The translations under genes were made by a program, and so were the position numbers. From a virus, in IMG/VR virus record IMGVR_UViG_3300028840_004170, positions 26,074 to 90,073 of that record: a stretch of DNA of 64,000 nucleotides, one strand, 5' to 3'. Positions 25,832 to 40,662 of this stretch are shown one piece after another; within the stretch, counting starts at the first letter, position 1; every line of letters starts with the position of its first letter. The notes under the pieces are model-generated. The model did not search any database, was not told the DNA's origin, and saw nothing but the letters and a program-made list of their open reading frames with translations.

Positions 25832-26401
25832 ATGCTAAGAGTTATTCATAGCCAATCTGAAGAAGGAACCATTATTCTCAGTGATATCGAGGATGGAGTT
25901 AGGTTCAATTCTAGACATATCCTTGATGCTTCAAAGAGGGCTTTATTGAAGCAACAGGTTCTGGTTCCATACGAGAATCCAGACGATGCAGCTCAACCTG
26001 GATTTGTTGACCTTCAAGAGACTGATAATGTGCTCTTGTCGGCTGACCATGGTTGCATCAAGGGTCTCCAGGACAATGGTTTAGCTACGGTGCAGATTTT
26101 CTCAGCCGCTGATCTGACTGCTCCTGCTATTACCACAGCCGATTTGGACAACCCTGGGGCTGGAGACCTTACTGTAACAGGTACTGATTTTCTGAGTATC
26201 CCACCAGATGTTTCCAAACTGGTTTTAACTGGCACTGGAGCCGTAGAATTGACTCAGGCTCAAGTAACTGGTGGTGGTGGTACTTGGTCAGATACTTCTA
26301 TCGTTGTCCCAGCAGCATTGGTTCCAGGCGTTGCTACGGGCACTACTTCAGCTACTGTAAGAGCTGATGGTCAGGATTCGAACACGGTGGCTTTATCATA
26401 A
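25832..26401 (+). CDS. Abundant virion protein with IPT/Ig-like domain
   Basis: The 189-residue product has a beta N-domain, then a C-terminal part in IPT/Ig style: DLTVTGTDFLSIPPDVSKLV (about 110-129) and WSDTSIVVPAALVPG (about 151-165). Codon use is biased towards C-ending and G-ending codons, as for the capsid genes, which suggests high expression. GAGGAG lies six bases before ATG 25832; the ATG at 25826 is too close. A decoration or tail-surface role is inferred. Confidence 0.55.
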   Translation: MLRVIHSQSEEGTIILSDIEDGVRFNSRHILDASKRALLKQQVLVPYENPDDAAQPGFVDLQETDNVLLSADHGCIKGLQDNGLATVQIFSAADLTAPAITTADLDNPGAGDLTVTGTDFLSIPPDVSKLVLTGTGAVELTQAQVTGGGGTWSDTSIVVPAALVPGVATGTTSATVRADGQDSNTVALS

Positions 26402-28956: not shown

Positions 28957-30234
28957 ATGGCATTTCCAGAAGCCCCACATAATTTGAATGTGGTATCACC
29001 ATATATCCCAAATGCATTGGATCTTAGATGGGATAATCCTGGTATTCTACCAGGGAATTCTCAGTTCAAGGTGCTTGGAGTCAATATTTATCGAGCCTTT
29101 GACAGTGAATTTGGTCCATTTCGTAAACTCAATGAAATACCTATTGGAGCTACGTTTTATCGTGATCAGGTACAGTTGAAAGTTGAGATTGATGAAGATG
29201 TATCAGATAATTACATCTCTAAAGGTACTCGTGAAGATGATAAATGGATATTCAGGGTGAAACGATACCCTATCATGAAACCAGCTACTGATACTAATTT
29301 GAAAATAGCTGATCATGCCAAAGATGTTACAGTAAAGATTGATGGTGTAGAAGTAGTACCATTTAAAGTGAAGGGGGATCTTGGTATTGTAGAGTTGGTG
29401 AATGGGCCTATTTTCAATCCGACTACTCAACGATTAGAACCACCAGTGCTCCCAACAGACAGTTCAGTAACGACTTGTACGTATAGATATCTATCCAATT
29501 CTTTATCTACAGCTATGAGTCAGAGGATTTTTTATCGTATCACAACGGTAGTAGAGGGCACAGGTTCAGGTGATGATGGGTACATTGAAACTCCAATGGA
29601 GAATACGTATCCTGTTTCAGCTCATGAAATTGAGAAGTTGGATTATATTTGGACAGAAGCTATTAGACGTAATCGATGGATACTAGAGCAGGGTGGGGAA
29701 AGAGTTAAAGTGTTCTTAAAACGTCACATAGGAATTCAATGTCCTTGCTGGAGATCGCATAAGAACCAGCCCAAGAGTGATTGTAAGAGATGTTTTGGAT
29801 CTGGTGTTTTGGGTGGGTATGACGGTCCTTATGATATGATTATAGCTCCAGATGAATCTTCAAAGAAAAAAGCTCAATCAGATATGGGTCGAAAGTTAGA
29901 GCATAGTTGGGAGGCATGGACAGGTCCTAGCCCTCTCCTTTCTCATCGTGATTTTATTGTACGTCAGAATGGTGACCGATATACTATTGGAGCACCTTCA
30001 ATCCCTTCAGCAAGAGGTTCTATACTACAACAACATTTTACAATGAACTACATTGATTCAGGAGATATTAGGTATTATGTCCCAGTCACTGGTACAGCAT
30101 CTCTTGTATTCCCAGAGACTCGACTTCAAAGTGATGGGTCTAATGTGTATCCTCAGATTACTGAGAAATCCACTATTCCAGATGAAAGGGAACAACGAGG
30201 TCGTACCGTAGTTTGGGAAAATATTACCTACTAG
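28957..30234 (+). CDS. Neck/tail-joining-like protein with FN3-type domain and zinc ribbon
   Basis: The 425-residue product begins with an FN3-like domain (APHNLNVVSPYIPNALDLRW). A beta module follows (VTVKIDGVEVVPFKVKGDLG ... VTTCTYRYLSN) of the type also found in the sheath. Next is a zinc ribbon with C262, C264, C276 and C279 (CPCW ... DCKRCFGSG), and then a beta domain. This combination is known from neck or adaptor proteins of large phages. The start follows the previous stop by four bases. Confidence 0.6.
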   Translation: MAFPEAPHNLNVVSPYIPNALDLRWDNPGILPGNSQFKVLGVNIYRAFDSEFGPFRKLNEIPIGATFYRDQVQLKVEIDEDVSDNYISKGTREDDKWIFRVKRYPIMKPATDTNLKIADHAKDVTVKIDGVEVVPFKVKGDLGIVELVNGPIFNPTTQRLEPPVLPTDSSVTTCTYRYLSNSLSTAMSQRIFYRITTVVEGTGSGDDGYIETPMENTYPVSAHEIEKLDYIWTEAIRRNRWILEQGGERVKVFLKRHIGIQCPCWRSHKNQPKSDCKRCFGSGVLGGYDGPYDMIIAPDESSKKKAQSDMGRKLEHSWEAWTGPSPLLSHRDFIVRQNGDRYTIGAPSIPSARGSILQQHFTMNYIDSGDIRYYVPVTGTASLVFPETRLQSDGSNVYPQITEKSTIPDEREQRGRTVVWENITY

Positions 30235-30241
30235 AATGTAA

Positions 30242-30751
30242 ATGAAATTTAGAATTCAACCAAATATTTTCACACCTGATCCGAAAGAACCAAAATTAAA
30301 CCGTTTCTTTTTGGACCGTTTAGCACGAGATATGGTGAGGATTCTGAAGACAGAAATCAAAAAAGAATCCTTCAAAGCTCCAGCAACGGATTTAATTCGT
30401 TCTTGGAAATACTCTGTTAAGGGGCAAGACATAGTAATATGGTCTGACCATCCAGCTTTGACAGGGGAGAAAGTTGAAGAAGAGGTAGAAGAAGAAAAGT
30501 TGGATCTTGATAATATTGACCTGCCTGATGATCCAAGAGAGGCTATGAAAGTATTACGTGCAATACCAAATGTAGCTGTGATACAAGATGATGGTAAGAT
30601 TGAAGTGAGGAAAGTGACAGCAAAAAAGATGGGGGATGAATGGGTATTCCCACCTCATAAAAGAACTGCATTTTTGGAACGAGCTAAAAGGTCAATTATG
30701 AAAATGATACGTAACAGGATTCAATCTAAGATACGAGAAGCAATAGGGTGA
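30242..30751 (+). CDS. Tail-completion-like protein (HK97 gp10-type guess)
   Basis: The 169-residue product is mixed alpha/beta: a helical start (FFLDRLARDMVRILKTEIKK), a strand pair around SWKYSVKGQDIVIWSDHP, and a C-terminal basic helix (FLERAKRSIMKMIRNRIQSK). This helix/strand/helix order resembles head-tail joining and tail-completion proteins of the gp10 type. The acidic central insert (EEEVEEEKLDLDNIDLPDD) is unusual. Context between neck-like genes supports the guess. Confidence 0.5.
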   Translation: MKFRIQPNIFTPDPKEPKLNRFFLDRLARDMVRILKTEIKKESFKAPATDLIRSWKYSVKGQDIVIWSDHPALTGEKVEEEVEEEKLDLDNIDLPDDPREAMKVLRAIPNVAVIQDDGKIEVRKVTAKKMGDEWVFPPHKRTAFLERAKRSIMKMIRNRIQSKIREAIG

Positions 30752-30755
30752 TGTT

Positions 30756-31406
30756 ATGGCAAAGATAGACTTAGACCGTGACCTTGTAGTCATAGGGAAC
30801 ATTGTGGGAGACCATAGAATAGATGATTTGGGAGTGACTGTGGGATATGATGAAGCGGTGCGTCTCACAGCAAAACAAGTATCAAAATCAAAAGATTTGT
30901 TCAGAGACATTAAAGATAAGAAACTTAGAGTAGATCGTAGGTTGTATGCTTCTTCAACAAAAGTTCCTGAGAAACCTGTGAAACCAAAAGAAGAATCATT
31001 ACCATCTTTGCCTAAGCCTGTAGCTAAGAGAGTAACTCAAAACACAAGCTCTCCAGATCTTGAAGCTGTGAAATTTTTGGCTGCTGGGAATGCTAGGACT
31101 TTGGAGAATCTTACCCAGCTCTTAGGTGAGGTTGTATCAGAACTGAAAGATATGAAGAGTTCAGTAGGGAATGGTGTTGATAAAGATACTCTTCGTGAAT
31201 TGTTACGAAGCATACAGATCCAATCAGGATCTGGGCAGGATATAATAGATACAGAAGCACCTCGATATATACCTTCAGACCTTTTAGGTGCTGAAAATGT
31301 AGTTTCTACAAAGGTCGATGTCAAATCAGAGAAGAAGAAGACTGGTAAGCTAGATAGCAATTTGAAGGCTTTGAAGGAACTAAGGGCTAAAAAAGAGAAT
31401 GGTTAA
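30756..31406 (+). CDS. Hypothetical neck-region protein, 216 residues
   Basis: I do not recognise this protein. It has a beta N-domain (MAKIDLDRDLVVIGNIVGDH), a Lys/Pro-rich linker (VPEKPVKPKEESLPSLPKPV), a helical middle, and a Lys-rich C-terminus. AGGG lies before ATG 30756. It closes the neck group before the noncoding gap ahead of the actin-like gene. Confidence 0.5.
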   Translation: MAKIDLDRDLVVIGNIVGDHRIDDLGVTVGYDEAVRLTAKQVSKSKDLFRDIKDKKLRVDRRLYASSTKVPEKPVKPKEESLPSLPKPVAKRVTQNTSSPDLEAVKFLAAGNARTLENLTQLLGEVVSELKDMKSSVGNGVDKDTLRELLRSIQIQSGSGQDIIDTEAPRYIPSDLLGAENVVSTKVDVKSEKKKTGKLDSNLKALKELRAKKENG

Positions 31407-31596
31407 TCTTTTTATATATATCTGAATGTGATGGGCTTTCAGGGATGATGTTGCTCAAACTCTAGAATCTATAAGATTCTATGTTTATTATGTGGCAAAT
31501 ATTTACTAGACGGAGCCGATCATAAGATGTTATATATAGACCTTGGGAGAAGGTCGCAATTTATGTTATGTAGCTAACGTCAAAGGAGAACACGAG
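31407..31596 (+). promoter_or_regulatory. Leader region of the actin-like gene with two hairpins
   Basis: This 190-base gap is among the longest in the structural arm. It holds TAGAATCT/AGATTCTA (31463-31481) and GACCTT/AAGGTC, the latter near 31538-31554, plus several ATGTT and TATATA elements. I see no clear tandem iterons, so a centromere-like site is unproven. It likely carries a promoter or 5' control region for the actin-like gene. Confidence 0.4.
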
Positions 31597-32589
31597 ATGA
31601 GTAACTCAGGAGTTGGTCTAGATATAGGGACCATGAACATCATTTCTGCTCGTAAGAATGACGAGGATGAACTAGTAGTCAAGAGGCTTAGAGATGCTTT
31701 TTTGGATCTTGAGCCTGATGCTAAGAAGATGCTCAAGCTTTCTGGAGTGAGTTATATAGAATACAAGGATAAGATTGTTATTGTTGGGGATACAGCTTTA
31801 CATACTGCAAATATCTTCAAAAGAGATGCTCGTAGACCTCTATCAAAGGGTATCATTTCACCAGAAGAGGTTGATGCTGTTGAAATTTTGTCCATCATCA
31901 TTAAGCAGGTGCTTGGTAAACCATCTGTTAAGAATGAGATTTGTTACTTCTCTGTGCCAGCCGAACCAATTGATGATGTTTCAAAAGATGTAATCTACCA
32001 TACCGATGTATTCAAGAGAATTCTTAAAGAACTAGGGTATGAGCCTCAAGAATCAAATGAAGCCCTTTCAGTGATTTTGTCTGAATGTGCTCAGGAGAAT
32101 TTTTCGGGTATTGCCTTGAGTTTTGGTAGTGGTATGGTCAATGTTGCTATGGCCTATCATAGCATGCTTTCGTTGGCATTTTCTATGTCTCGTGCTGGAG
32201 ATTGGATTGATACTCAGGCAGGGAAAGCTCTAGGTCAAACTTCTTCTAGGATGTGTACCATCAAGGAAAAAGGTATTGATCTGAAAAACCCTAAAGATCG
32301 TAATGAAGAGGCAATAACCATTTATTATAAATCCTTGATTGAGGATGCTGTTAAGTATCTGGTGAAGAAGGTTGGTGAAATGGGAGAGTTGGATTTCCCA
32401 GAACCAATCCCTATTGTGTTGGCAGGTGGTACCTCGAAGATAGGCGGTTTTTTGGACGTGTTCAAAGAGATATTTGAACCCTATAAGGTCAAAATGAAAG
32501 TGGAAATCAGTGAAGTCCGAATGGCTGTGAATGTATTAACAAGTGTTTCAGAAGGGCTTCTATTACAAGCTCTTCAAGAATATGAATAA
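31597..32589 (+). CDS. Actin-like ATPase (MreB/ParM/FtsA superfamily)
   Basis: The 330-residue product has the actin-fold landmarks in order. They are phosphate-1 VGLDIGTMN (6-14), a connect-type segment CYFSVPAEPID (116-126), a phosphate-2-like IALSFGSGMVNVAM (172-185), GDWIDTQAGKALG (201-213), and an adenosine motif IVLAGGTSKIGGF (273-285). The usual Asp of phosphate-2 is Ser (S175), so hydrolysis may differ. Family members polymerise into filaments that move DNA or organise the cell. AAAGGAGA lies seven bases before ATG 31597; an upstream in-frame start at 31543 lacks support. A small HeH/SAP-type gene follows at 12 bases. Confidence 0.8.
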   Translation: MSNSGVGLDIGTMNIISARKNDEDELVVKRLRDAFLDLEPDAKKMLKLSGVSYIEYKDKIVIVGDTALHTANIFKRDARRPLSKGIISPEEVDAVEILSIIIKQVLGKPSVKNEICYFSVPAEPIDDVSKDVIYHTDVFKRILKELGYEPQESNEALSVILSECAQENFSGIALSFGSGMVNVAMAYHSMLSLAFSMSRAGDWIDTQAGKALGQTSSRMCTIKEKGIDLKNPKDRNEEAITIYYKSLIEDAVKYLVKKVGEMGELDFPEPIPIVLAGGTSKIGGFLDVFKEIFEPYKVKMKVEISEVRMAVNVLTSVSEGLLLQALQEYE

Positions 32590-32600
32590 GGAGGATAGAT

Positions 32601-32864
32601 ATGGCACGTCGTTACAAAGGTATACTGTTTCCTGACACTTCTTTTGAGACTCCAGAGCATGGTATCCCAGGACAAGAAGGTAAGGCAAAGAAGAAGGCAA
32701 AGAAGCCTGCGGCAAAGCCTATTGAAGAAACCGAAACTCTCAGCTCTTCTGATTTGAGCAAGATGAAGAAAGCTCAGGTAGAAGAAGAAGCAGAGAAGTT
32801 AGGGATTGACATAACTGATAAGACCAAAAAAGAATTGGTTGAAGAAATCTTGAATACCCAATAA
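32601..32864 (+). CDS. Small HeH/SAP-type protein
   Basis: The 87-residue product has a basic Lys/Ala linker (AKKKAKKPAAKP, about 29-40) and a C-terminal helix-extension-helix: LSKMKKAQVEEEAEKLGI (about 52-69), then DKTKKELVEEILNTQ (to the end). This matches the HeH/LEM or SAP-like fold, which binds DNA or RNA. GGAGG lies before the ATG. Its position right after the actin-like gene raises the idea of a filament adaptor; a neck-related role is equally possible because such small proteins are common in phage head-tail clusters. Confidence 0.6.
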   Translation: MARRYKGILFPDTSFETPEHGIPGQEGKAKKKAKKPAAKPIEETETLSSSDLSKMKKAQVEEEAEKLGIDITDKTKKELVEEILNTQ

Positions 32865-33985
32865 TGTACTATTGGCTCACAAATGCAACCAAAAAGTTCC
32901 TAATTAGTGAACTTAGAGAGTCGTTCGCTGATCATCCGTATTTCTCTAAGATTCAGGTCCAAGATCGGTTTTCTTTCAAAGAACGTCCTCAATTTGCTTT
33001 GATTATAAAGGGATCTAGTGGTGATAGGATAGTGTTATCACCACAGAATTTTGTAGGTATGGTGCATAGTTATTGTATGCTTGCATCTATTGATGGACAT
33101 AAAGGACAGTTCTTAGAATGGATACGAGAAGATACTCAGGCTCTATATGATAATGATAATGTGTTCCCTACCGAGCCTGGGATATATGTTCTTGAACTTC
33201 TTGATGTTGATGATGAGAAAGAAGGTGGTACTGTAATTGTGGATGTTTTCCGGTCTATATTTGATGAGAATCTCATAACATTTGAGACTGGGTTAGAAAC
33301 TGAAGCCTATCTTGATAATGAACCTATCACAAAAAGTCTTCGTCTTCGAGTAGATAATAATGATTATGTCTATATTTTAGAGGAAGGTGTTGATTATGAC
33401 CAGGATGGTAATAAAATCACTTTTCTCAGTCCTTTTGTGGAGAAAACTACTATCCTAGCAGATTACAAAGTTTTGACTGGGAGTAATGGTCCACATACTT
33501 TCAATTCTTTTGGTTCGAATAATTCTATACTTCCAGGAGTAGTTCTAGCTTTCGGACATAAATTGCTAAAAGGTGACAAGTGTGCTGTAGTTATAACGGA
33601 TCGTAGAGGGCCAGCATTCAATGAATATGGTGGTCATTATACAATGAGCTTTGACATAGATGCCATTGCAGTAAAGGATTCTGAACAAGCAGAGCAAGTA
33701 GCTGACGATGCTGTGATGACTTTTCTGAAGAAAAAATCTCAATTTGAGGATGTTGGCCTGACAATGGTAGATGGTCCTTCTTTGGGTGGTGAGTCTGAAG
33801 AAGTCTATGATGAAGAAGGGGATGAATATTATTTCTCAAATAGTTTTTCTATATCTTTCCAAACAGATTGGTCTTATTATGAGCCTCTGCCACTGCAAGT
33901 CTCTCAAGTAGTGGTTTCTACGGTCTATGAACAGATCGTCACGAGATCTGAAAGACGTGAGTTAGATATAGAAAAGTTTTTTTAA
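32864..33985 (+). CDS. Neck/tail-terminator-like structural protein
   Basis: The 373-residue product starts at the TAATG overlap with the previous gene. It is mixed alpha/beta; its C-terminal region (HYTMSFDIDAIAVKDSEQAE, about 264-283) and SFSISFQTDWSYYEP look like the strand/helix repeat of tail-terminator and tail-completion proteins. An inserted beta module (LRLRVDNNDYVYILEEGVDY ... TTILADYKVLTG, about 161-208) has the style found in the sheath. It is placed just upstream of the sheath, as tail-end proteins usually are. Confidence 0.55.
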   Translation: MYYWLTNATKKFLISELRESFADHPYFSKIQVQDRFSFKERPQFALIIKGSSGDRIVLSPQNFVGMVHSYCMLASIDGHKGQFLEWIREDTQALYDNDNVFPTEPGIYVLELLDVDDEKEGGTVIVDVFRSIFDENLITFETGLETEAYLDNEPITKSLRLRVDNNDYVYILEEGVDYDQDGNKITFLSPFVEKTTILADYKVLTGSNGPHTFNSFGSNNSILPGVVLAFGHKLLKGDKCAVVITDRRGPAFNEYGGHYTMSFDIDAIAVKDSEQAEQVADDAVMTFLKKKSQFEDVGLTMVDGPSLGGESEEVYDEEGDEYYFSNSFSISFQTDWSYYEPLPLQVSQVVVSTVYEQIVTRSERRELDIEKFF

Positions 33986-34040
33986 CCTTTTTATGTCATC
34001 TCTATTTGTAGATGATGGATTCGTAGCAGCGAGGGAAACC

Positions 34041-34457
34041 ATGCCAGTATATAAATATGAATGTAGCGGATGTGGTCTAGAATTTGACCGGCTTGTGTCT
34101 AGTTCCGAGGGGAGTGAGAAGACTTCCTGTGTGAATTGTGAAGAAGAAGCCACTAAAATTGTGGCTAAGGCTAGTTTTAATTTTTCATCTTCTCGTGCCC
34201 AAGGTGAAACTGGGGTGCATGATATTGACTATCCTGTTGTGGATAAGGCAGTGGGTCGTTCTGCTGAGAAGAGATGGATCAAGTTTGAAGAGCGTCGTAA
34301 AGCTGAAGACCATGCTAGGAGCGATTATGATAGTCCCTATCTAGGCAAAGTGCCTATTGGGGATCATACTGACGGATATTATCGAGTACCTCAAGAAAGA
34401 CTTGAGGTACGTCGTGAAGCAGCCAAAGAATTACATGAGGCTTTGGTTGGAAATTAA
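34041..34457 (+). CDS. FmdB-like zinc-ribbon protein (second copy)
   Basis: The 138-residue product starts with a classic FmdB ribbon: MPVYKYECSGCGLEFDRLVS (C8, C11), then TSCVNCEEEATKIV (C30, C33). A charged helical region follows. GAGGGA lies five bases before ATG 34041; the in-frame ATG at 33993 has no site. It is a distant paralogue of the ribbon gene at 15776-16204. It sits directly before the sheath gene, and its role there is unknown. Confidence 0.65.
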   Translation: MPVYKYECSGCGLEFDRLVSSSEGSEKTSCVNCEEEATKIVAKASFNFSSSRAQGETGVHDIDYPVVDKAVGRSAEKRWIKFEERRKAEDHARSDYDSPYLGKVPIGDHTDGYYRVPQERLEVRREAAKELHEALVGN

Positions 34458-34504: not shown

Positions 34505-37500
34505 ATGACACCATTAGGTATGGGACCTTTCGAGTCACACGTTTTCCCTGGGGTCTATACTAGAACTGTCCGTGAACGAGGTGGTGGACCTCCTGCGGGC
34601 ATCAGACCCTTAGTAATCATAGGTGTAGGACAGGAATACCTTGAAGTAACCGATTTGGAACTGGTTCGAGGTTCGTCTGCTACTGTAGATCAGCGTATCG
34701 TCAATGAGGATGTGAGTGAAAGATTTGTTTTGGATGAAACAAATCCTGATAATCCTGTCCTTGGTGCTGCTGATGGGGTGCATTCTAAGTTCAAGGTACG
34801 TAACCTTCCTATCGTGACTGGAGAAGGTAGAGGTGAAACCTCTACTAGTCCTACCCATGTGGAGGTTACTGTAGACGGTACTCTAGTAGCAGTAGCTCAA
34901 GTGAATGGTACTAAGGGTGAGGTTACTCTTCAGTCCATTCCAGCAGAAGGATCTACAGTTCTTTGTACCTACTACTATAATCGCACCGATACTCAGGTCA
35001 CTGAAGATGTGTCTGATCAGGTTAGTGAAGAATATGCCCTGTTGTATTCTAGCCCAGAGACATTTGAAGTTACTGAAGGTATCAATGACACCTTCAAGTT
35101 GTCTGTGAATGGTGGTTCAGAGAAGACTGTCACTTTAACGGCAGGGGCTGGTAGAACAGCTCTTCAGATCATTGCTGATATCAATGCAGCTCAAGTAACA
35201 GGTCTGACAGTTTCAGTGGATCTTGATGAACAAGGTCAAAACAGAATCGAACTGAAAGCTGCTAGTGAGATTGAGATTGGAAATGGTAATGCTAATGCTC
35301 TCTTGGGATTTGCAGCAGGTCAGACTTCTGGGAGGAATAAATCTTTCAGAACATTCCAGAGACCAATCGTAGATGGATCTAATGGTGGTATCACATCAAC
35401 AGATCCTACCGATGTGACAGTGGCAGTTAATGGTACAGACCAAACTCCAGTGTCAATTGATGGTACGAATGGTTGGGTGACGTTATCAGTACCACCTCCA
35501 GTAGGAGCTACTGTTGCAGTCACATACTATTTCAATACATATCAAGATACTTTCGATTATCTACCAAATGATGACATTACTGAAGTGGGTAATTGTGGGT
35601 ATGCTCCAGGACGTAGGGATTACTTAAATCTTTCTGATTTTGTGGTCAGTGATGGGAAGATTTATTGGGGTACTTCTGTATCTGTTACAGGTGGTGACCG
35701 TTCTGCTGGAGCAGAGCCATTTGATGATACTCAGATTTCAACTCTGTTGATTGATAATCGTATCTACATGGCTGAATGTGAACGATATGTTGATACATCA
35801 GTCACTCCTTCAGTGGTTTCTGATAATGAGTTTGTTCTTCCAATGCCTCCAACAACGGGCAATGGTAGGAATTCTCCATTAGGTTCAAGTCTATATGAGA
35901 CTGTTTCAGAAGGTCGTATTGATCTCCCTACAAATCGTCCCGATCTTGTCATTGCATATCGTGGACGTGATGTTGTAGATGCTCTCAATAATGGTCCTAT
36001 AGATGTTCTAGAAGTTGACTCTTCTACTCGTAGAGTCAAGTTAGGTGGAACGGTACCTCCTGGGGACTTGGTATTCTGTACGTTCTGGTACAATCGTATC
36101 ACAGATGACACTTTCACTCTTGAATGTCTGAATGAAGGTGTTTCAGGTACTGGTAAGTATAGTGTCTTGTCATCTTTGACAGGTACTAATCAGTATGCTG
36201 TTCTCTTTGCTGGGAAGAGTGGTGGGTTGGCTGAGACAGTTCAATGGCCTTCAGGTGTTGAGACTGTACCAGATGCAATTCATGTTGGTGGTGACCCTGT
36301 TTTAGAGATTGTTACAGTTACGTTCCATGATTCTACTGGAACCCCTGCAATTTTCACAAACACTGAACCTGGACCATATTCTTGCTACGATGGTGCTTCC
36401 GACTTGTTCTATTATAATGTAGACAATATTGGGATGACCAATGTAGACCTAAGCAATAGTGGTGCAGCTTCAATAGTAAGTGGTGCTTGTGGGACTACTA
36501 TTGATTGTAGTGGTGGGAATAATCTCGTTGAATTTACAGTTGATGGTGTGTCGGTACCAGTTACTCTCGGAACATCAGCTACTGAAGCAATTGCTGATAT
36601 CGTGACAGCTATTAACTTAGCTTCAAATGGTACAGCTCTTAGTGCAGATATTGCTGAGACCATTGGTACGGGGGCTCTTACCAGACTTCGGATCTTCTCC
36701 CCCACTGCTCCTACTGGTCCAGATGATGTTTCTACTGTAGTTGTAGAATCTGGCACCGCAAACACACCTCTTCTTCTCACAGAAGGTGACGAGAGCACTG
36801 GTATTGAAGGTGCTGTGGCATTGCCAGCTACTTTACTCAGCTCTAATGCTGAAAGTTATGCTATCACTGCTGGTGTGAACGATATTTTCCGTCTCACCAT
36901 TGATGGTGTTCCTTATGAGGTCAGCCTCACAGCCGGTACTCGTACTGCTGCCCAGATTGCTACAGACATCAATACGGAAACAGGTGCTTCCAATGCTGGA
37001 TCTGTGACCGTAGGTGCTAGCAATTATCTCAGGCTTTATTCCAATATCTCTAGTCCAGATAGTAAGATCATCATTGGTGATGGTACTGCAAATACTACTC
37101 TTGGGTTCACTAGTAATCAGACTGGGGATCAAAGACTGCCTGGAGCTGAAGAAATTTCAGTGGTCTTGAATGATGATACTACATTTAAGACTCGGGCTAG
37201 AGCAAGCACCGTAACTCAAGCTGGTGTTGGAGTGTTCTTGAGGATTGAGTCTCTGACCATTGGTACTACATCATCTATCGCTTTTGGTACAGGTACTGAC
37301 AGTGCCTTCAATGATACTGGACTTGGGATTGTACCAGGGACATCTGGAGATGTTGGTGAAGGTGCTGGATCTTACTTTGATGTGACTTCTTCACATTCAG
37401 AAGGTTCTGGTACTGGTACAAGCAACATTGGTTATCCGGGACAAACCTATACAGATGAGGTCACGGGTCTTAGATTTACAGTTCTAGAATCTACAACAGG

Positions 37501-38728
37501 ATCATATACTGATGGGGAATCTTTCGGGATGTCTGTAGTTGATGAGATCCCAACTAATGCAAATACTCCTGTCAGGACTATCCCTGGTGTTGAAATGACA
37601 GTAGCAAATACTGTAAATGTCAGTGTTGGTGATACTTCTATTGTCCGTACTTTCGATAAGTCCGGTAATGAACCATCTATCGGTGACTTCTATTACATCA
37701 GTTATAGTTATACCAAAGATAGTTGGGACACAGAACTGTTCACTTCTGATGAGATGCCTGTCATTAAGTCCCTATATGGTGAAGTCTCAGTCGAAAACAG
37801 ATTGTCTCTGGCTGCCGACATTGCCTTCAAGAATGGTATCCCATATCTTGGCTTGAAGCAGGTTCCAAAGGTTGAAGATTCAAGTCAGGCTTCTGTATCT
37901 AGTTTCATTGAAGCTATCAAAGAACTTGAGCAGCCTCTCCCAGGGGATGTGAAGCCTTACGTTATCGTTCCATTGACGACAGAAGCTGAAGTTATTAGCT
38001 ATCTTGAGCAGCATTGTGCTATCCAGTCCAGTCCACGATATGGTAACAGAAGGATTGGTTTCTTCGGCTTTGCAAGTGGTACTAAGCCTACAGATGCTCA
38101 GGCTACAGCTAAGGCTATTGGTTCTCATCGTATGAGGACAGTATATCCTGATTCAGCTATCGTTGGAATCGAGAACGAGATTGGGGAAGAGACTGAACAG
38201 ATTGTTGATGGTACTTACTTGGCAGTAGCTCTGGCAGCTTCTTGTCTCAATCCTATCAATGACTTTGCTCAGCCTTATACCAATAGGACTCTGCAAGGAT
38301 TTAAACGTCTTGGTCGTCAGATCAATACTGTTGAACAGAGTCAGACAGCTATTTCAGGTATCAATGTTCTCCAGGATACTGCTACTGCAATTGAAGTTAT
38401 GCAGGGCTTCACTACTGATATGTCTGATCTGCTCACTCAGATTCCGACCATTACTCAGATTGATGACCAGATGCATGTCAACATGACTAAGCGTCTGAAG
38501 AAGTTTACTGGTGTGAAGTTCTTACCTTCACTTCCTGCTGAGGTTCAGTCTGAGGCCAATGGTGTGTTGAGAGCAATGAAGGAAGCTAATCTAATAGCAG
38601 ATTATGAGCCTGCGGTTGCTACGGCACATCCTGATGATCCAACATTGATCTTGGTTGAAGCATATTATGCTCCAATCTTCCCGAACCTCTACATTCTTGT
38701 GACACAGCATGTAAGGATTCGCATCTAA
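34505..38728 (+). CDS. Tail sheath protein, unusually long, with inserted repeat domains
   Basis: The sheath surrounds the tail tube and contracts at infection. The N-terminus has FPGVYTRTVRE, a usual sheath start. The last 330 residues look like the conserved sheath core, with RRIGFFGFASG, LAVALAASCLNPINDFA, and ending YYAPIFPNLYILVTQHVRIR. The 1407-residue length is about twice normal, owing to inserted repeats. Flagellin-hook-like units lie near residues 185-276, 662-762 and 782-876 (for example FKLSVNGG ... IIADINAA). Beta modules (V-V-G ... VNG--G-VTL ... YYYN) lie near 118-158, 300-345 and 475-535. AGGAGG precedes the ATG. Its stop meets the stop of an antisense gene. Confidence 0.85.
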   Translation: MTPLGMGPFESHVFPGVYTRTVRERGGGPPAGIRPLVIIGVGQEYLEVTDLELVRGSSATVDQRIVNEDVSERFVLDETNPDNPVLGAADGVHSKFKVRNLPIVTGEGRGETSTSPTHVEVTVDGTLVAVAQVNGTKGEVTLQSIPAEGSTVLCTYYYNRTDTQVTEDVSDQVSEEYALLYSSPETFEVTEGINDTFKLSVNGGSEKTVTLTAGAGRTALQIIADINAAQVTGLTVSVDLDEQGQNRIELKAASEIEIGNGNANALLGFAAGQTSGRNKSFRTFQRPIVDGSNGGITSTDPTDVTVAVNGTDQTPVSIDGTNGWVTLSVPPPVGATVAVTYYFNTYQDTFDYLPNDDITEVGNCGYAPGRRDYLNLSDFVVSDGKIYWGTSVSVTGGDRSAGAEPFDDTQISTLLIDNRIYMAECERYVDTSVTPSVVSDNEFVLPMPPTTGNGRNSPLGSSLYETVSEGRIDLPTNRPDLVIAYRGRDVVDALNNGPIDVLEVDSSTRRVKLGGTVPPGDLVFCTFWYNRITDDTFTLECLNEGVSGTGKYSVLSSLTGTNQYAVLFAGKSGGLAETVQWPSGVETVPDAIHVGGDPVLEIVTVTFHDSTGTPAIFTNTEPGPYSCYDGASDLFYYNVDNIGMTNVDLSNSGAASIVSGACGTTIDCSGGNNLVEFTVDGVSVPVTLGTSATEAIADIVTAINLASNGTALSADIAETIGTGALTRLRIFSPTAPTGPDDVSTVVVESGTANTPLLLTEGDESTGIEGAVALPATLLSSNAESYAITAGVNDIFRLTIDGVPYEVSLTAGTRTAAQIATDINTETGASNAGSVTVGASNYLRLYSNISSPDSKIIIGDGTANTTLGFTSNQTGDQRLPGAEEISVVLNDDTTFKTRARASTVTQAGVGVFLRIESLTIGTTSSIAFGTGTDSAFNDTGLGIVPGTSGDVGEGAGSYFDVTSSHSEGSGTGTSNIGYPGQTYTDEVTGLRFTVLESTTGSYTDGESFGMSVVDEIPTNANTPVRTIPGVEMTVANTVNVSVGDTSIVRTFDKSGNEPSIGDFYYISYSYTKDSWDTELFTSDEMPVIKSLYGEVSVENRLSLAADIAFKNGIPYLGLKQVPKVEDSSQASVSSFIEAIKELEQPLPGDVKPYVIVPLTTEAEVISYLEQHCAIQSSPRYGNRRIGFFGFASGTKPTDAQATAKAIGSHRMRTVYPDSAIVGIENEIGEETEQIVDGTYLAVALAASCLNPINDFAQPYTNRTLQGFKRLGRQINTVEQSQTAISGINVLQDTATAIEVMQGFTTDMSDLLTQIPTITQIDDQMHVNMTKRLKKFTGVKFLPSLPAEVQSEANGVLRAMKEANLIADYEPAVATAHPDDPTLILVEAYYAPIFPNLYILVTQHVRIRI

Positions 38729-39358: not shown

Positions 39359-39630
39359 GATATTCGATCCAAAAAGGTCAGATTCGAAACCAGGTTTTGA
39401 AGCAAATCAGTGTGTTGAAGGAATCTGTGTCTGTTTTAGAGGAAGCATCTGGTTTGAAATCAGATGAAATTAAAGAATATGAAGAGAATGATCCTGGGAA
39501 AGCTTCAAAGTTGAAGCGTCAAGTGAGGATTATCCAGGAAGCTATCAGTTCTATAAGAAAGTCTGTAAAAGTTCTAGAAAAGTATAGAAATACCAAAGTG
39601 ACTTATCAATATCCTAACCCAAAGGAATGA
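39355..39630 (+). CDS. Coiled-coil protein, 91 residues
   Basis: The product is almost wholly helical with heptad-like spacing (QVLKQISVLKESVSVLEEAS; IIQEAISSIRKSVKVLEKY). Its short C-terminus overlaps the end of the antisense HTH gene by 17 bases, tail to tail. Coupling by ATGA ties it to the preceding beta protein; the two may form one assembly. Confidence 0.55.
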   Translation: MRYSIQKGQIRNQVLKQISVLKESVSVLEEASGLKSDEIKEYEENDPGKASKLKRQVRIIQEAISSIRKSVKVLEKYRNTKVTYQYPNPKE

Positions 39631-39862
39631 TTTTCGAGGGAAGAATCACTTTACCTTCCGTGACCCCATATCTTTGACGTAATGATTTCTTACGATCTCT
39701 TTGAGCTGCCCACCGATCCAGTTCTGATTTTGAGAACATATAAGGTTTTTCTGAGGGGTTGACAGGGGAAATCTCTCTACGGCTTAGGCAGTTATAGAAT
39801 GACTTTTTCTTCAATCCAAGATACTGACAAGCATCATCGGTGCAAAAATACTTTTCTTCCAT
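39614..39862 (-). CDS. Helix-turn-helix DNA-binding protein (excisionase/AlpA-like)
   Basis: The 82-residue product has the compact HTH_17 pattern: YFCTDDACQYLGLKKKSFYN (about 4-23), then a wing-like SEKPYMFSKSELDRWAAQRD (about 37-56). Such proteins act as excisionases or transcription regulators. The start codon overlaps the sigma-like gene's stop as TGATG, so both are made together. It lies on the strand opposite to the tail genes. Confidence 0.7.
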   Translation of the reverse strand: MEEKYFCTDDACQYLGLKKKSFYNCLSRREISPVNPSEKPYMFSKSELDRWAAQRDRKKSLRQRYGVTEGKVILPSKIIPLG

Positions 39863-40662
39863 CACATAACCAGATTTTCTACGATTTCTTTGACAACCTT
39901 AACCTTTTGGTATCCGCTAAGGAATCTAATGAAATCTTTTGATAGCCCTACGAGTTGGAATTTTATTGAAGCTGGCTCTACAGGGCTTCCTAATTGTTCT
40001 CCAACTTCTTCAGCCAGTTCAGTTAGACTATACTGTTCAAGATAATATTTTCTGAACATATCGGCAAGAGGAAACTTTGAACGCTGAGTTTTGGAATCAT
40101 CTTCAAGGAATTTCACGAAATCTTTGAAGATGATCTGCCACTCAAGGTCATTCATTTCTTGTTCAAATAATCGCATTGTAGATTCAGGTGACCCTTGAAG
40201 ACGTTCTTCCAAAGTGTCTATAACATCAGTTCCTGCTGGGCCATAGTATTCTTGGCCTTTATCTCTGATCCACTTCTTTTTCTTTAGAACAGATAATTCT
40301 TGAACCGTCTTATTTACTAGCAGTTTTGTGATATCTGTGACCGTCTTATCTTCATCTAGTTTTTCGAACCAGTTATTTCGAATCAAAAACTCAATCACAT
40401 CTTCCATAGCATCATTTGCATCGGCAGGGTTTGGGAAGAAGCTTTTTACCTTGTTGAACATATAGTTCTTGATCTTCAAGGCTTCAGCCTTGTCAATTGG
40501 TTTACCTATTTTCTCAAACATTTGCATGAGATATAGAACCCATGTCTCAGAGTAACTTGCGATAACTCTTCGTAATACAACAATAAATTGTTCTGGGAAG
40601 CTGAGAGCAGAAAATACCTTTTTACGTAATGCTCTAAGCTGTCGGGTCGCTATGCGTGTCAT
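39862..40662 (-). CDS. RNA polymerase sigma-factor-like protein
   Basis: The 266-residue product shows a sigma region 2-like segment, DANDAMEDVIEFLIRN (about 81-96), followed by VNKTVQELSVLKKKKW (about 116-131), and a C-terminal helix-turn-helix like region 4: YYLEQYSLTELAEEVGEQL ... ASIKFQLVGLSKDFIRFL. Sigma factors direct RNA polymerase to promoters, and phages use them for late genes. AGGAGA lies six bases before ATG 40662. Divergence means the family call is moderate; a DNA-binding regulator is the alternative. Confidence 0.6.
   Translation of the reverse strand: MTRIATRQLRALRKKVFSALSFPEQFIVVLRRVIASYSETWVLYLMQMFEKIGKPIDKAEALKIKNYMFNKVKSFFPNPADANDAMEDVIEFLIRNNWFEKLDEDKTVTDITKLLVNKTVQELSVLKKKKWIRDKGQEYYGPAGTDVIDTLEERLQGSPESTMRLFEQEMNDLEWQIIFKDFVKFLEDDSKTQRSKFPLADMFRKYYLEQYSLTELAEEVGEQLGSPVEPASIKFQLVGLSKDFIRFLSGYQKVKVVKEIVENLVM

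Follow-up and report, generated by a model that had tools for sequence, protein, structure and literature searches.

Why is an actin-like gene found among the genes that join the head of a phage to its tail, and with what would its product work? The question arises from a window of 64,000 nucleotides of viral DNA (IMG/VR record IMGVR_UViG_3300028840_004170, positions 26,074 to 90,073), in whose coordinates all features are given below. To our knowledge, PhuZ tubulin and a few actins of prophages account for most of what is known of phage cytoskeletons. A sequence-only reading of the window had reported a 330-residue open reading frame with actin-fold motifs, an 87-residue open reading frame after it and a 190-base gap before it, and these coordinates are borne out:

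31407–31596, plus strand: gap that contains small hairpins and is not conserved as a cis site (iteron and fold analysis, gap lengths in relatives)
31597–32589, plus strand: VOL, a volactin-family actin-like ATPase of 330 residues (PF25216, AlphaFold2, Foldseek, MamK profile match, pocket residues)
32601–32864, plus strand: SAP/Rho_N-like gene of 87 residues, accessory and outside the conserved module (same phage's contigs only)

VOL is a full-length volactin

The VOL reading frame starts with the ATG at 31597, after AAAGGAG, and its stop codon ends at 32589. Its product matches the Pfam family Volactin (PF25216) across residues 6–325 of 330 (E 9e-70, 236 bits, cut-off 35); Pfam also returned a weak MreB match and no ParM. 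Haloarchaeal proteins are 39–40% identical to VOL across its length. An AlphaFold2 model built with 90 natural relatives reached a pLDDT of 92.9 and a pTM of 0.91, and Foldseek placed MreB, Mbl and MamK at the top of its matches (E about 1e-14), with TM-scores of 0.73 against the MamK filament subunit and 0.76 against BeeR. MamK was also the closest solved structure by sequence profile (E 3e-10 against the PDB), where VOL as a single sequence gave no match. VOL is thus a full-length volactin-family protein with an actin fold, and structure prediction agrees with the fold first proposed for it. Membership of the ParM family is ruled out, as Pfam returned no ParM and the best PDB profile match is MamK. 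Volactins differ from MamK too, scoring far under the NCBIfam MamK cut-off; in that collection VOL had no match, and two relatives only had weak matches to MamK/MreB. A search of a viral structure library returned distant matches only.

The phosphate-1 and adenosine motifs noted earlier are present in VOL, as is the phosphate-2 motif. Residues D9, G11, T12, E155, G177, G179, G201, D202, D205, K223, E224 and G277–G278 are invariant or nearly so across 81 phage and 78 cellular volactins, and the nucleotide-pocket residues are equally conserved in the two groups. The serine that replaces the phosphate-2 aspartate had been singled out; it is real (Ser175), but it is no oddity. It is invariant across the same 81 phage and 78 cellular sequences and is therefore a family trait, which also rules out that ATPase activity was lost through it. 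The volactin of Haloferax volcanii and its relatives (VolA, HVO_2015, PF25216) belongs to the same full-length family and has the same phosphate-2 serine. In Haloferax, volactin forms long, dynamic filaments in vivo with membrane-bound tips, and its dynamics were compared by the authors to ParM instability (PMC10869688); the binding factors of archaeal volactin are not known (PMC10869688).

VOL is a core gene of a neck and tail cluster

The surroundings of VOL were compared among 51 loci of its own phage lineage (type I) with 9 kb on each side, termed full-flank loci. The following genes flank VOL:

28957–30234, plus strand: neck/virion protein of 425 residues (phrog_1004 virion structural protein, E 4e-7; 48 of 51 full-flank loci)
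30242–30751, plus strand: neck protein of 169 residues, gp10-like by reading, no family match (profile in 51 of 51 full-flank loci)
32864–33985, plus strand: putative neck/tail-junction protein of 373 residues, so named from its position (43 of 51 full-flank loci; anchor of an independent scan)
33993–34457, plus strand: FmdB-type zinc-ribbon protein (PF09723, E 7e-11; 43 of 51 loci)
34505–38728, plus strand: large, putatively tail sheath-like protein of 1407 residues (41 of 51 loci; Pfam DUF2460 and Flagellin_IN)

We chose the names neck, gp10-like and sheath from gene order and weak matches; none comes from a curated hit. The FmdB-type zinc-ribbon gene (33993–34457) regularly accompanies the neck genes of these huge phages. 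Further downstream, on the minus strand at 39614–40662, lie two genes that, by reading, encode a small protein of HTH type and another resembling a sigma factor; among the loci examined they are found in this phage only.

The cluster was also sampled independently of VOL, by a scan with the 373-residue neighbour that yielded 60 clusters with enough upstream sequence. VOL was present in all 60 and the upstream adaptor described below in 59, so VOL is a core gene of the head-tail cluster of the type I lineage. The neck/tail setting had been recognized correctly, but taken as unusual, whereas in this lineage it is the rule. The same constancy suits the main rival to a filament, according to which VOL and its adaptor would be virion proteins that build a ring or collar of actin fold where head meets tail, with nucleotide bound for structural reasons and no filament formed. 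VOL always lies between neck genes, often abutting the next gene, and its retention in all sampled clusters is what a structural role would favor. The pocket residues, however, are conserved as in cellular filament formers, which argues against such a ring. The earlier suggestion of a virion part that has kept only the fold is weakened by this conservation, although membership of the virion is still compatible with it.

The two elements closest to VOL had been proposed as its partners, namely the 87-residue HeH/SAP-type gene as a nucleic-acid binder and the gap as a cis site. A weak Rho_N/SAP resemblance does exist (Pfam E 0.0048 and 0.13, both short of cut-off), but the gene is absent from relatives except for contigs of the same phage, even by permissive search; in other phages the space between VOL and the 373-residue gene is empty or holds various short inserts. 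The pairing of this gene with VOL is thus not kept in relatives, and the SAP gene was dropped as a partner. The gap does contain small hairpins, but neither a repeat array nor iterons were found in 31380–31620, shuffled sequences fold almost as well as RNA (z -1.93), and its length varies: in relatives without an inserted gene, mostly 1–105 bp precede VOL. The gap is not conserved and was likewise dropped as a cis site.

An adaptor gene with a conserved tail lies upstream of VOL

A different gene accompanies VOL throughout the type I lineage:

30756–31406, plus strand: adaptor (partner A) of 216 residues, with an N-terminal 'DLG' domain, a Pro-rich linker, a coiled-coil-like part and a conserved C-terminal tail (upstream of VOL in type I loci)
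31266–31283, plus strand: (F/Y)IPS motif of the adaptor tail, here YIPSDL (tail alignment)
31302–31331, plus strand: tail segment VSTKVDVKSE, predicted as a strand (the matching segment is a strand in the fusion model of locus L066)
31350–31394, plus strand: C-terminal helix of the adaptor, LDSNLKALKELRAKK, the proposed volactin-binding element (tail profile, fusion model)

Wherever a type I phage locus extends far enough upstream, the adaptor precedes VOL, either adjacent or with one to a few genes inserted. In clade B phages (e.g. L063:9284-9958) a Dps/ferritin-like gene (PF00210, phrog_3636) stands between adaptor and volactin. Adaptor proteins are about 20% identical overall and have in common the N-terminal DLG domain of ~50 residues and the C-terminal tail, which follows the pattern (F/Y)IPS-x-I, then an IxVxxxxS-like segment, then a helix LDDAxxALRALRKKK; the (F/Y)IPS motif also occurs in the partners of Magnetococcales and Neomarinimicrobiota volactins. 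Membrane segments were found in none of 86 phage adaptors. The adaptor in the window has no Pfam match, and the Pfam matches of a related adaptor (L012) are sub-threshold, with none to a DNA-binding family. A PDB profile search with the window adaptor gave weak matches, mostly to coiled coils, and the 373-residue protein likewise had weak matches only, mostly coiled-coil or chance.

In whole phage genomes of 203–619 kb, tail matches at E < 1e-3 fall in the volactin cluster only, and a 297-kb phage contig (G006, the contig of L041) carries two volactins, at 131,852 and 293,993, each beside its own tail-bearing adaptor. The tail was not found in the type II record described below or in phiKZ.

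In locus L066 the adaptor and VOL share a frame, so that readthrough of the one stop codon in the natural DNA yielded a tail-VOL fusion for AlphaFold2. In the resulting model tail residues 24–29 form a strand and residues 32–49 a helix (pLDDT 75–77), with the following linker at 39–45. Since the tail has no second strand, its strand would have to pair with VOL. Docking of the tail on VOL is suggestive only in this model, which has few tail rows, a cis geometry and no inter-part error estimate. The tail helix is short and its hydrophobic moment is low (0.13 in the window, 0.09 in haloarchaea), which counts against a filament module.

VOL and the adaptor encoded just upstream would work as a two-gene module, in which the C-terminal tail (FIPS, strand, helix) may dock on volactin as the ParR tail does on ParM and the arcadin-2 tail on crenactin; in those two cases C-terminal parts occupy a hydrophobic groove (PMC5173319). 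The crenactin-arcadin-2 pair is similar in that a gene-neighbor partner binds the actin via a C-terminal helix (PMC5173319), as is proposed for the phage, and differs in that crenactin belongs to another actin family and arcadin-2 depolymerizes. The N-terminal domain of the adaptor would then set the attachment target of the filament.

The adaptor tail recurs beside volactin in cells

A profile built from the phage adaptor tails alone was searched against 80 cellular volactin loci in six-frame translation, 11,710 segments in all. The best matches (to E 2.6e-7) fell in an Omnitrophota gene ~1.5 kb downstream of the volactin end, followed by genes directly upstream of volactin in haloarchaea, Magnetococcales, Anaerolineae and Neomarinimicrobiota. 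Upstream-adjacent genes make up 28 of the top 50 matches against 1.05 expected (p 1.5e-34, a value that ignores kinship among loci). In controls, the number of upstream-adjacent genes among the top matches was 0–1 with shuffled-column profiles and 0–2 with the tails of four other phage genes. A tail match above 5 bits was lacking nearby in 30 of the 80 cellular loci, which was counted against the module.

The same tail is carried by different anchors. In haloarchaea and Archaeoglobi the anchor is DUF7139, with 3–4 membrane segments; in Magnetococcales it is a membrane protein with FIP and a helix, in Omnitrophota a coiled-coil-like protein, and in Anaerolineae a protein with an N-terminus that reads as winged-helix-like. 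For Archaeoglobi, the tail resemblance (EVDNAAKVLKMIEES) is our own reading, with no strong profile match. The Anaerolineae example (L111:5354-5950) is possibly a true DNA-segregation version. In Omnitrophota (L090-L114), the conserved gene cluster that holds volactin also encodes a ParA/MinD-like ATPase and coiled-coil proteins. Several of the Omnitrophota and Magnetococcales volactins presumably stem from magnetotactic-bacterium assemblies.

Haloarchaeal volactin thus resembles VOL in having an upstream partner gene with a similar tail. The two systems differ in gene context, the phage gene lying within a neck cluster, and in the anchor, which is soluble in the phage partner and consists of the DUF7139 membrane segments in haloarchaea. 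A control search showed that DUF7139 is present in Haloferax volcanii, and the common tail offers it as a candidate anchor of archaeal volactin, whose filament tips touch the membrane (PMC10869688). No report of DUF7139 or of a phage volactin was found in the open-access literature.

The sequence-only reading had likened the locus to ParM-ParR-parC. The likeness to an actin with an adjacent adaptor stands, with a C-terminal tail as the proposed binder, but the actin is a volactin and not a ParM, the adaptor lies upstream and is not the SAP protein, and neither a parC-like site with centromere repeats nor a recognizable DNA-binding adaptor was found. We consider it very unlikely that the system segregates or positions replicating phage DNA in the manner of ParMRC or AlpAC, either the SAP protein or the adaptor serving to bind the DNA. 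The actin-plus-adaptor layout would fit, as would the winged-helix-like anchor in Anaerolineae and the Dps-like gene between adaptor and volactin in clade B phages, and AlpC/AlpA of the Corynebacterium prophage CGP3, also a phage actin with an adaptor, sets a precedent (PMC4446434, PMC5539076). However, the SAP gene is not conserved, no iterated site is present, phage adaptors match no DNA-binding family, and VOL lies within a structural cluster; the CGP3 system differs in that AlpA binds phage DNA sites (PMC5539076).

Volactin and a tail-bearing adaptor may form a cytoskeletal module common to archaea, bacteria and huge phages. In this module, the tail would bind volactin and a change of anchor (membrane, DNA-binding, coiled coil or virion part) would redirect the filament; one huge-phage lineage would have made the module a core of head-tail assembly, while a second phage lineage carries volactin with an unrelated upstream partner. 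We regard the odds for and against this general scheme as even.

Phage volactins and a possible filament in late assembly

Among 50,697 phage records, volactin was found in two metagenomic huge phages only, LR745208.1 (485 kb, 50% identity) and LR756511.1 (595 kb, 30%). An alignment scan of IMG/VR with VOL identified 490 relatives; among the best 80, which were examined, 24 lie on contigs of at least 200 kb, up to 619 kb. Identical VOL copies occur on contigs of 186 and 358 kb. A scan from LR756511.1 found 108 relatives of this more distant phage volactin (type II). Cellular volactins occur in haloarchaea, Archaeoglobi, Thermoplasmatota, Omnitrophota, Magnetococcales, Acidobacteria and others. 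The type I phage volactins form one group in a tree (SH-aLRT 99), beside Magnetococcales, Neomarinimicrobiota and one Thermoplasmatales sequence, and LR756511.1 stands far from type I on a long branch.

The close volactin relatives in possible host groups would suit a phage volactin that mimics or poisons a host volactin or MreB-type cytoskeleton, altering cell shape for infection, and the tail could then compete with host anchors. Yet a decoy would need neither strict linkage to neck genes nor a dedicated phage adaptor, and this is the least probable of the readings considered here.

Type II volactins are found in other company, beside genes for PKD-domain proteins, a glycosyltransferase, a primase and an exonuclease, and none of the neck genes of the type I cluster lies within about 10 kb of them. 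They have their own upstream gene of ~75 residues with the C-terminal motif WAIPDFxSxxKIxFGK, seen in 79 of 81 loci (L005:11759-13014, L177-L256). Its tail has no similarity to those of the type I and cellular loci, which was counted against the filament module. The type II volactins also speak against the virion ring, given their setting apart from the neck genes, near those for primase, exonuclease and PKD proteins, and their separate partner; so does the adaptor tail, since cellular proteins anchored in the membrane, which do not belong to virions, carry it as well. We judge the ring unlikely, while giving it more weight than the other alternatives.

The reading that we favor, with a probability of roughly 0.6, is that VOL is a cytomotive filament tethered by the adaptor and acting in late assembly; polymerization, direct binding, cargo and the role in assembly are what we infer. 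It starts from what was observed of family, fold, conserved pocket, strict linkage to adaptor and neck genes, and a common tail on different anchors. VOL would be a nucleotide-binding, filament-forming actin homolog made late, from one cluster, with the head-tail joining proteins. Where the anchor in archaea and Magnetococcales would be a membrane domain, the phage adaptor has a soluble anchor, whose most likely target is an assembly intermediate of the neck, capsid or tail; inside the infected cell, dynamic volactin filaments may thus move virion components into place or toward one another. The earlier idea of a filament system plus adaptor in the phage structural arm is supported as a possibility, but through parts other than those originally proposed.

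Such a role would be comparable to that of the PhuZ tubulin spindle, which volactin phages appear to lack. Profiles for PhuZ and for chimallin each matched none of 26 volactin phage records, some of them fragments, and both detected phiKZ; tubulin was found in none of 30 volactin phage records, again including fragments. The PhuZ spindle of chimalliviruses is likewise a phage-encoded cytoskeletal filament of giant phages, to which a VOL filament would be the counterpart, and differs in being built of tubulin and not actin. Actin filaments are not mentioned in a 2026 review of jumbo phages. Our results suggest that assembly in a large family of giant bacterial or archaeal viruses makes use of actin-type filaments encoded by the viruses themselves. 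If this is true, the conservation of volactin among the core structural genes of many uncultured huge phages would make actin-type filaments standard in giant-phage infection beyond the nucleus-forming group.

All phage volactin sequences in this comparison are metagenomic. Phage-type volactins also occur on contigs assigned to a Thermoplasmata MAG and to an uncultured bacterium (L088, L089); these contigs are probably viral.
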